Of a stretch of DNA of 36,947 bases, positions 14,411 through 20,453 are shown one piece after another. Every line of letters begins with the position of its first letter. The first letter of the stretch is position 1. A program made the position numbers and the translations under genes. The notes under the pieces are model-generated. The model saw only the letters and a program-made list of their open reading frames with translations. It made no database searches and was not told the origin of the DNA. Source of the DNA: Caldilineaceae bacterium (GTDB lineage: Bacteria > Chloroflexota > Anaerolineae > Caldilineales > Caldilineaceae); the NCBI GenBank assembly GCA_019455155.1, contig JACFMY010000007.1, forward strand, positions 1 through 36,947. Reading direction: 5' to 3'.

Positions 14411-14869
14411 ATGGCGCTGTACACCCGGAAGCTTAAACAACACGAGCGCAGAACGATTGAGGCACATCTGAATGCCCCTGAGGAAGATCTGCCGGCCCAC
14501 CGGCTGCAGATCATTATGCTCTCTTCTGCCGGCAAACGGGTTCCCGAAATCAGCGAAGAAGTCCATCTCCACCCCATCAACGTCCGCAAGTGGATTCACC
14601 GCTTCAACGAATATGGTCTCGATGGTTTGCGCAGTGGCAAATCCCCGGGGCGGCCGCCGGTCTTTACAGACGAGCAGCGCGCAAAAATCGTGGAAATCGC
14701 AGCCACCAATCCCCGGAACTTGGGCCTTCACTATTCGCGGTGGTCTCTGCAGCGGCTGCGCCGCTACCTGATCGAACACCGCATCGTCGACCGCATCAGC
14801 GTGGAGACGATCCGACAGATCATCCAGGGACAGAATGTCTCGACCCTGCAGCAGCGAAAGCGGGGATGA
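14411..14869 (+). CDS. orphan IS630-type helix-turn-helix protein
   Basis: This is a 152-residue, all-helical DNA-binding protein. It matches the N-terminal half of IS630/Tc1-type transposases: a first homeodomain-like helix-turn-helix ([47 protein letters not shown]), the basic linker SGKSPGRPP, and a second winged-helix part ([13 protein letters not shown] ... [18 protein letters not shown] ... [11 protein letters not shown]). The DDE catalytic domain is absent and does not follow in any frame before the terminator at 14901. GAAAGGAA lies before the ATG. The intact frame, its own leader and its terminator argue for a domesticated regulator, not a dead fragment. The alternative is a recently truncated element. 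No terminal repeats are seen at its edges. Confidence 0.8.
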
Positions 14870-16704: not shown

Positions 16705-17832
16705 CTACTGACCCTGTTGGTAGCGGCGTACATTTTCCTGGTGCGCTTCGAAGGTCTCGGCAAAGACGTGGCGGCCACTCCCGTCGGGCAAGGCCACGAA
16801 GTAGAGGTAGGCATGGGGCTCGGGGTAGAGCACGGATCGGATGCTGCTGACCCCAGGCGCCGCAATGGGGCCTGGCGGCAGGCCGCCATACAGGTACGTA
16901 TTGTAGGGGCTGTCAACGCTCCCATACTCTTCCAGAAAGACGGGCGTCTTCCACCACTGGCCCGTCGCCGGCTGGTAACCCATGGCATATTGCACCGTGG
17001 GGTCCGCTTCTAGCTTGATCCCCTGCGCCAGGCGGTTGAGATAGACCGCCGCGATGGCGGGACGTTCCTCTGGCACCACAGCTTCCCGTTCCACAATGCT
17101 GGCCAACGTGACGACCTGGTGCAGATTCAGCGCCGTGACGCCGCTGGCCGCGGCTTCCTCGAACAAGGGCACCACGCGCTGCGCAAAGATGTCAAGCTGC
17201 CGCGCCAGCACGTCCGTTGCCGTGGCGCCGTCCGCCGGAATCTGGTAGGTATCGGGGAAGAGATAGCCCTCCAAGCTGGCGCCAGCTGGCAAATCCTGTA
17301 GAAACGGATAGCGGGTCGGGTCCAGGCCGGTGAGGTCTCCGTTGGCAGCCTGTATACGGTACGCGTCCGCGCCGTCCGGTGTGGCAAAGATACCCGCCTG
17401 GGCCAGGTACTCGGCCGTTTGTTCCAGCCGCCACCCTTCAGGGATCGTGAGGGTGATGGACGCGGCCTGGGCGTTTTGCAATGCCGCGACGACCTCGCGC
17501 AGCGACATGGAGGGACTGAGCACAAAGGTGCCAGCCTCCAACCGGTAATCGAGCTCATTGGCGCGCACGTAGGCCTCAAACAACGTAGCATCGCGAATGA
17601 GCCCGGCCTGTTCCAGCTGCTGGCCGATCACCCGTGCGGGCGTACCGGGCTCCACCACGAATTTAACGGGTCGCGTATCCACGCTGGCGGGCTTGTCTAC
17701 TTCTGCGGCGTTGGTGCGGAGATAGACCTCCAGCCCCGGCCCAGTCCGTGTACAGCCTGCAACCACCAGAACGAACATCAACAAAACGAATGCTGGCGCT
17801 AGCCGGCGCCAGCAAGAAGCTGGGCCGCTCAA
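16705..17832 (-). CDS. mltG: endolytic murein transglycosylase MltG
   Basis: This is a 375-residue, membrane-anchored YceG/MltG protein that cuts nascent glycan strands and releases them from the synthesis machinery. The N-terminus is a hydrophobic anchor ending in VVAGC (Cys27), which may be a lipobox. A LysM-like subdomain ([21 protein letters not shown]) is followed by the catalytic domain with [21 protein letters not shown] (Glu248 by analogy with the E. coli catalytic Glu218), [10 protein letters not shown] and [14 protein letters not shown]. The start is a TTG overlapping the TGA stop of the upstream epimerase gene (TTGA), so translation is probably coupled; the next Met (residue 19) would destroy the signal. 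The length is normal. Confidence 0.92.
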
Positions 17833-18785
17833 GAGATAGCAATGCCTTTCTTGTTGGCCGCGCGCGAGAATCGCGGGTCCAGCTCATAGAGCTTGCGCAA
17901 GCCGTCGGCCAGCGTGGTCCTGGGCTTGAATTTCAACATCTGTTTCGCCTTGGTCAAGTCTGCGACCAGGTGAGCGATGCCGCCCGACATCTCACTGTTG
18001 TAAATCACGTTGGCCTTTGCGCGCACGGTGGCGCTGATCTGTTCGATCAGCTCTGCCAGCGCCGTCTCCTGCCCGCTGCCCACATTGATGGTCTCTTGAT
18101 CGATATTGGCCGCGGTCGCGGCGCTGACCAGCGCTTCCACGACATCGTCGATATAGACAAAGTCGCGTGTCTGCTGGCCGCTGCCAAAGACCACAACGGA
18201 GCCGCGGCCGATGGTCTGCTGCATAAACTGTGGGATGACCGGAGCATGGGCCGGCGGCAAGGGCTGGCCGGGACCATAGGCGTTGAAGATCCGCAGTGCA
18301 ACCGCTTCAAAACCGCTCAGGCGGCCAATGGTGAAGAGATAGCGTTCCGCGGCCAACTTGCTTACCGCGTAGGGCACGGCAGGGTTGGGTATCATCTCTT
18401 CGCGCACAGGCTGTGTCTTTTGGTCGCCGTAGACCGTGGCGCTGCTGGTCAAGACCACACGTTTGACCCCCACATCACGGCAGGCCTCCAACAGGGCCAC
18501 TGTGCCGCCGACGTTGACGTCGTTGTACTCGCGCGGGTAGAGCACCGACGCAGGCACGCTGACAAGGGCTGCCAGGTGGTAGACCACATCCACGCCCTGC
18601 AGGAGAGACCAGAGCTTCGGTATGTCGCGCACGTCGCCGCGGTTGAAATTGATGCCGGCGGCCAGCGCAGCTGGGTCGCCGCTGCTCAAGTTGTCCAGCA
18701 CGCGGACATAGAACCCTTTTTCGTGCAGTCGATTCGATAGATGGGCGCCGATAAAGCCGGCGCCGCCAGTCACCAGGACTCGCAT
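17829..18785 (-). CDS. NAD-dependent epimerase/dehydratase (GalE-like)
   Basis: This is a 318-residue extended short-chain dehydrogenase. It has the Rossmann NAD site TGGAGFIG, the DxxD strand GDVRD, the active-site Ser in LTSSATVYG, and the YxxxK pair Tyr139 and Lys143 (YAVSK). The C-terminal half ([17 protein letters not shown]) fits UDP-sugar 4-epimerases, so a role in cell-surface sugar-nucleotide interconversion is likely; the exact sugar is not determinable. The ATG at 18785 has GGAG ten bases upstream. It overlaps mltG downstream by four bases. Pairing an epimerase with MltG suggests cell-envelope synthesis, but that is inference. Confidence 0.88.
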
Positions 18786-18892: not shown

Positions 18893-19012
18893 TAGTGGTC
18901 TGTCAAGCATCAAACTTGAGTTCGGTAGTGGCGACTTTAGTCGCTGTGGACAGGTGAAGAACGAATCAATTCGTTACTACCGGATGGCTAAAGAATCACG
19001 CTTGATAGACCA

Positions 19013-19015
<3 letters not shown>
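18893..19015. mobile_element. MITE-like element with TA-type ends and nested hairpins
   Basis: The 123-bp element begins TAGTGGTCTGTCAAGC (18893-18908) and ends with the inverted copy GCTTGATAGACCACTA (19000-19015), 15 of 16 matching. If the terminal TA pairs are the target duplication, this fits IS630/Tc1-type transposition. Inside are nested stems: GGTAGT (18924-18929) with ACTACC (18976-18981), GCGACT-tt-AGTCGC (18931-18944) and AACGAAT-ca-ATTCGTT (18960-18975). No coding sequence is present. Its right end supplies the stop codon of the metallo-beta-lactamase gene at 19013-19015. Confidence 0.75.
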
Positions 19016-19951
<936 letters not shown>

Positions 19952-20000
19952 GGGATCCCTTGCAGGCGCTATGCGTGCTAGCGGGCGGGGCACAGCCGCG

Positions 20001-20453
20001 TTATGTCTCCCGCGGCGCCAGCGTCCTCAAGCCGGTCTGTAATCGTTCCAGGATAGTCTCAGGAATCCGGGCCATGCGGCCTTCCAGGTCTACACAGATA
20101 TGTTCCGTGCTGCCAGTTGCCAAGAGGACGCCGCTGGCGGCATGCGTAACCTCATACTCAAAGCGCACATGCCGGCTACGTAGCCCGCTTACCCACGCCT
20201 TTACCCGCACCGTGTCCCCAAAACGTGCGGGCGAACGGTATTCGAGCTGGAGTGCCGTCACCGCAAAATGGTGTCCACCGCCGGCTACCTCCACGTAGGG
20301 TACACCGGCGGCATCCATCCACGCCACGCGGGCCGCCTCGAACCAGACGATATAGGTGCTATGATGTACGACCCCCATGGCATCGGTCTCGGCAAAGCGG
20401 ACCGCAATATCAATTGTCACAGCAGAGAGCTGATCGCTACTCGCAGAATTCAT
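20001..20453 (-). CDS. YbgC/FcbC-type acyl-CoA thioesterase
   Basis: This is a 150-residue single hot-dog domain. The active-site segment RFAETDAMGVVHHSTYIVWFEAAR carries Asp24 at the catalytic position of 4-hydroxybenzoyl-CoA thioesterase/YbgC proteins, and the second half (LEYRSPARFGDTVRVKAWV, RFEYEVTHAASGVLLATGSTEH) fits the family. These enzymes hydrolyse short acyl-CoA or acyl-ACP thioesters in the cytoplasm. The neighbouring metallo-beta-lactamase hydrolase may act in the same small-molecule clearance pathway, which is only a guess from operon order. The start ATG lacks a strong ribosome-binding site. Family assignment is firm. Confidence 0.88.
   Translation of the reverse strand: MNSASSDQLSAVTIDIAVRFAETDAMGVVHHSTYIVWFEAARVAWMDAAGVPYVEVAGGGHHFAVTALQLEYRSPARFGDTVRVKAWVSGLRSRHVRFEYEVTHAASGVLLATGSTEHICVDLEGRMARIPETILERLQTGLRTLAPRET

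Follow-up and report, generated by a model that had tools for sequence, protein, structure and literature searches.

An IS630-type MITE with a REP-doublet core at the stop codon of an MBL-fold hydrolase gene in a Caldilineaceae genome

A 123-bp MITE with IS630-type ends supplies the TAG stop codon of an MBL-fold hydrolase gene in a Caldilineaceae bacterium. The element lies in a window of 36,947 nucleotides, the whole stretch of contig JACFMY010000007.1 that was analysed, and is best read as IS630 ends placed around a REP doublet. We hold with high confidence that the observations as a whole are best explained by a MITE that was moved in trans by an IS630-family transposase into the native stop codon of the hydrolase, with the protein left unchanged. 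The family to which the element belongs is a new IS630/Tc1-mariner-type MITE family in an uncultured Anaerolineae genome. The features of the window are collected in Table 1.

Table 1. Position, strand and supporting details of the features in and around the element.
Feature	Position	Strand	Details
MITE (non-autonomous IS630-type element), one TA per tip included	18893..19015	+	28 full-length aligned copies from the same genome, 93% mean column identity
Left terminal inverted repeat, TAGTGGTCTGTCAAGC	18893..18908	+	Arm continues with lower identity as far as 18920; ends shared with IS630 elements L276/L285, L286, L287, L299
Right terminal inverted repeat, TAGTGGTCTATCAAGC on the minus strand	19000..19015	-	
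Core, two inverted GTAG-tagged hairpins (REP doublet / BIME-like)	18925..18980	+	GTAG 18925-18928, CTAC 18977-18980
Hairpin 1, GCGACT-TT-AGTCGC	18931..18944		
Hairpin 2, AACGAAT-CA-ATTCGTT	18960..18975		
TAG stop codon of the hydrolase, made by the element tip	19013..19015	-	CTA on the plus strand, TAG on the minus strand
MBL-fold hydrolase gene (GloB-like), middle of a conserved thioesterase-hydrolase-epimerase set	19013..19993	-	PF00753; synteny
NAD-dependent epimerase gene, downstream of the element	17829..18785	-	PF01370; next after the hydrolase in element-free relatives
Thioesterase gene, upstream of the hydrolase	20001..20453	-	PF13279; synteny

Structure of the element and its copies

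An earlier note on this DNA had described a non-coding element with 16-bp inverted ends, TA at each tip and nested hairpins, and all of these features are present in the sequence of the window. The terminal 16 bp match in inverted orientation at 15 of 16 positions, and the arms extend to 28 nt at 79%. Small hairpins are nested in a 21-nt inverted repeat, which is itself enclosed by the terminal repeats. The single-strand fold of the element reaches -31 kcal/mol, compared with -17.4 ± 2.6 kcal/mol for shuffled sequences (z = -5.2; none of 200 shuffles was as good). The element has no coding capacity, and only two ORFs of at least 60 aa touch it, namely that of the hydrolase, whose end coincides with the tip of the element, and an overlapping second one at 18988-19581, which is located on the hydrolase strand and mostly within the hydrolase gene.

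A conserved structured RNA was considered and rejected. Covariation is near zero on the predicted fold, and compensatory change is confined to hairpin 2, where one pair changes from A-T to C-G in five copies. An Rfam search with the element gave no match, and a consensus scan detected no intrinsic terminator within it.

The genome that carries the element is a draft assembly of 6.85 Mb in 780 contigs, with an estimated contamination of 5.3%. A BLAST search of this genome gave 73 matches to the element, and a covariance model gave 113 at E ≤ 0.1, a figure well above chance that includes both-strand duplicates of the near-palindrome. Grouping of the two sets of matches yields about 65 insertion sites, of which 28 retain both TA ends intact; the ends of the other 37 are degraded or cut by contig ends. 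The search for further copies proposed in the earlier note thus has a clear outcome, and its identification of the element as a MITE is borne out by this number of sites together with the inverted ends and the lack of a gene.

Full copies were absent from 60 relatives, in which the core alone was found, and no copies were detected in the plasmid, phage and viral collections searched. The exact 14-base end occurs 35 times in the own genome and at most once in any other of the 396 genomes of the class Anaerolineae (own genome included).

Tandem arrangements are also seen in the own genome. MITE-derived units of 107 bp form an array at C506:1669-1997 (L160), and core-only arrays with a 72-base spacing are located on C182 (L246), at C382:7490-7691 (L159) and on C291; those on C291 and C382 adjoin MITE ends. 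On C557 and C694, tandem copies of the element have one CTAG in common, as would result if the first copy created the CTAG into which the next one inserted.

Terminal repeats and the source of the transposase

The ends of the element place it with IS630. When the DDE part of the transposase of one IS630 element, L276, was used to search 85,000 species, 26 loci were obtained, one of which (L285) is the same contig as L276. Among the other 25 transposase relatives, three carry both ends with no more than 2/14 mismatches to the element's TAGTGGTCTGTCAA, and four do so within three mismatches. With 300 shuffled ends as a control, the mean numbers were 0.000 at ≤2/14 and 0.003 at ≤3/14. The three matching loci (L286, L287 and L299), which were found by transposase homology, come from an Anaerolineae, a Planctomycetota and Dictyobacter aurantiacus. 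Ends shared with IS630 elements that were recognised by their transposase identify the element as an IS630-type MITE, and the IS630/Tc1-type ends proposed in the earlier note are thereby confirmed. Most well-defined ends among the IS630 relatives have C before the TA and G after it.

The L276 element (L276:376-1514) was found by its end sequence, unlike the three loci above. It is a 1.14-kb IS630 with CTAG flanks, and its ends also match those of the MITE. Its transposase is split in two frames, with HTH_32 in the first and both DDE_3 (PF13358, 5.5e-22) and NF033545 (101 bits) in the second; the TAG stop of this transposase lies in the right end of its own element. A 0.7-kb element at L275:227-952 looks like an internal-deletion derivative, plausibly a step towards a MITE. 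In other genomes the 14-base end has eight single matches, five of which look like element ends in context. These five are the elements in L276 and L275, two short ones of MITE-like appearance in L269 and L272, and a match in L270 that is one-sided.

Neither the IS630 catalytic domain (DDE_3) nor a full IS630 transposase was found in the own draft genome of 780 contigs, although a MITE relic need not have such a partner beside it in the genome. An active IS630 with the same ends, which the earlier note had advised looking for, is thus absent from this assembly, and such ends were found in other genomes. We therefore infer the source of the transposase from other genomes. The best IS630-like match in the own genome is a protein of 152 aa encoded at 14411-14869 on the plus strand. 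It has just an HTH domain of IS630-like type and no catalytic domain, and shares 34% identity over 91 residues with the HTH part of an IS630 bearing these ends. This orphan DNA-binding protein had been put forward as a partner of the element, a role that finds no support. It is rejected as the transposase on account of the missing catalytic domain and of the lack of element ends beside its gene; among the matches listed, the contig carries no element end other than the two at 18893-19015. We read the protein as a putative remnant or domesticated DNA-binding protein.

Insertion into the native stop codon of the hydrolase

The last triplet of the element is indeed the stop codon of the hydrolase, as had been noticed from the sequence alone. 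From this it had been suggested that the insertion truncated or rewrote the C-terminus, and such a reading has in its favour that the stop codon is literally within the element and that the tail looks disordered. However, several element-free orthologues share a common C-terminal motif and stop at the same column (..DSSANESADRGDMVR, compared with ..DSSSTNRSTDPGDWRR in the window), and reconstruction of the empty site gives CGC TAA, which places an in-frame stop at this same codon. The orthologue alignment, which shows what the earlier note had named as grounds for refutation, leads us to reject a truncated hydrolase, and we give almost no credence to a rewritten C-terminus. The unstructured character of the last ~30 residues is real, but it is native, with the tails of the orthologues being likewise rich in Ser and Asp.

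Since the orthologues share both the C-terminus and the stop position, the element can be taken to have entered the native stop codon and to have restored a TAG. As judged from the aligned sequences, the insertion changed TAA to TAG at most and left the predicted protein unchanged; the original stop codon would have been TAA.

The gene order of thioesterase, hydrolase and epimerase is kept in relatives. In eight of them, which lack the element, the hydrolase stop and the epimerase start are separated by 14-123 bp. The separation in the window is 227 bp, or ~104 bp without the element. The best NCBIfam match of the hydrolase is hydroxyacylglutathione hydrolase, under the cut-off. In most orthologues the alignment begins only at residue 14-15 of the hydrolase ORF as listed (19951-19993, minus strand), and for this reason the ATG at residue 15 is probably the true start, in place of the GTG at 19993.

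Target site and stop codons across the genome

The reconstructed empty site has the form C[TA]G in 22 of 28 intact copies, compared with 2.9% of background TA dinucleotides (p = 7e-29); background TA and CTAG rates were taken from 228 kb of contigs of the same genome. Duplication of TA by the IS630 family is described in PMC2170065, and CTAG is a published target of IS630 (Tenzen and Ohtsubo 1991, cited in PMC2170065). The left and right tetramers of the present copies agree slightly more often than shuffled pairs (43 vs 40.1, p = 0.02), and the duplication may comprise the 4 bp CTAG instead of TA. In that case the stop codon would be duplicated rather than split, with the same outcome.

A 4-bp duplication and a YTAR target would also be expected of an IS5-family MITE of the MITEPsy1 kind. 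MITEPsy1 is a 100-bp MITE that inserts at CTAG or YTAA and duplicates these sites (PMC3189936). Most tetramers of the present element fit YTAR, and the copies on C512 (CTAC/CTAC) and C96 (GTAG/GTAG) have the matching non-CTAG tetramers that a 4-bp duplication gives. Against this, the tetramers do not match in several copies, including the one at 18893-19015 (TTAG/CTAG), and matching ends are found on IS630 elements that encode DDE_3 transposases, whereas MITEPsy1 has IS5-type ends (GGAAGGTCTG..) unrelated to those studied here. We consider an IS5 affiliation highly improbable and retain the assignment to IS630.

The position of the copies relative to genes was determined with a purpose-written gene finder trained on the own genome, again with a background of 228 kb. 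Of the 65 sites, 21 coincide with the TA of a stop codon and 35 are intergenic; the remaining 9 lie within genes, and some of these have degraded ends. Random TA dinucleotides fall in stop codons in 1.8% of cases and inside genes in 79%; the corresponding values for CTAG are 12% and 69%. Insertion into stop codons is thus ~18 times as frequent as for random TA. In a direct count on the actual sequences, a predicted gene takes its stop codon from the element at 30 of the 65 sites. Nine of these are additional to the 21 and less certain, as the empty site is hard to reconstruct where an end has degraded, and an insertion within a gene would have the same appearance. One copy (L218; C515:3905-4026) provides a TAG stop at either end and so terminates two convergent genes.

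The 21 stop-codon sites, the 18-fold rate and the 30 donated stops would all be understandable if the element actively sought stop codons or gene 3′ ends beyond its preference for CTAG. Outside coding sequence, however, the share of stop codons is 37.5% for insertions (21/56) and 38% for CTAG sites (21/55; Fisher p = 1), and the excess of convergent pairs over the CTAG background is small (16/49 vs 9/55, raw counts). Active targeting of stop codons was rejected in the absence of any excess over non-coding CTAG, and we regard it as unlikely. The equal shares indicate that the choice of CTAG and the loss of gene-breaking insertions suffice.

The mechanism that we favour is as follows. An IS630-family (Tc1/mariner-like DDE) transposase would act in trans on the TAGTGGTCTGTCAA ends and, presumably by cut and paste, would insert the element at the TA of CTAG-like sites. 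At the hydrolase this TA would have belonged to the original stop. The element starts with a G that adjoins the duplicated TA, so that the interrupted codon would be completed as TAG and the protein would remain unchanged. Insertions into CTAG inside genes would be lost by selection, and since more than one third of non-coding CTAG sites are stop codons, a large share of the surviving copies would end a gene. The element offers a clear and quantified example of how target choice and tip letters together make insertion into a stop codon harmless, since the TAG within CTAG is formed anew by the tip. This explains the harmless build-up of such elements at gene ends and predicts the same for other elements that target CTAG.

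Relation to known elements

RUP, Correia/NEMIS and Nezha are MITEs of the IS630/Tc1-mariner family. The element resembles them in being short and non-coding, with IS-family terminal inverted repeats, TA tips and tens of copies; it differs in its core, a GTAG REP doublet, and in that no autonomous partner was found in the own genome. This likening draws in part on the list given in PMC3733652. IS630 of Shigella sonnei likewise prefers TA in CTAG (Tenzen and Ohtsubo 1991, as cited in PMC2170065), but it is an autonomous IS of 1.2 kb, in contrast to the present element, which has no gene.

GTAG REPs, or BIMEs, are reported to occur in Chloroflexi and often to give a TAG stop to flanking ORFs (PMC3733652). 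Like the core described here, they have GTAG at each hairpin foot, form an inverted pair and lie mostly outside genes. In the present case, however, the TAG comes from the IS630-type end and not from the GTAG tag, and the pair is inside a DDE-type MITE instead of being free. The contribution of stop codons by repeats is therefore already known; the quantified CTAG reason for it in an IS630-type element is new.

The GTAG core

The core consists of two inverted hairpins, each with GTAG at its 5′ foot, and GTAG at the foot of a hairpin is the mark of REP sequences. The motif GTAGTRGCGACTTNAGTCGC is present in 45 of 396 genomes of the class (the own genome and 44 others), up to 115 times in one of them, and a reversed-motif control had zero occurrences in the 396 genomes. 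Other genomes of the same family do not contain GTAGTRGCGACTTNAGTCGC. The GTAG pair also occurs free, as a 56-bp unit, in several genomes (L032, L033, L037, L041). In another Anaerolineae genome (G048), it is enclosed in a different inverted-repeat element with AGCGTGTCTGAAAA ends, which has at least six dispersed copies with differing outer flanks (L046:94-159, L049, L052, L054, L057 and L058; at about 1501-1566 in most).

The doublet may have been captured once, or REPs may enter MITEs repeatedly. We tentatively entertain the idea, though we lean against it, that the GTAG pair travels as a cassette in DDE-type MITEs unrelated to one another, so that REP doublets and MITEs may combine repeatedly. 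If so, the hairpins may be of use to the combined element, for instance by shielding or terminating the transcripts of preceding genes. A REP doublet carried by a DDE-type MITE connects two kinds of bacterial repeat that are as a rule considered separately.

The own genome contains a RAYT-like gene (PF01797) at C363:798-1124 (L148:798-1124), which is the sole RAYT-like gene found. The repeats beside it contain the palindrome GTAGGGCAGGTATGGTACCTGCC and represent a second type of GTAG repeat that differs from the core of the element.
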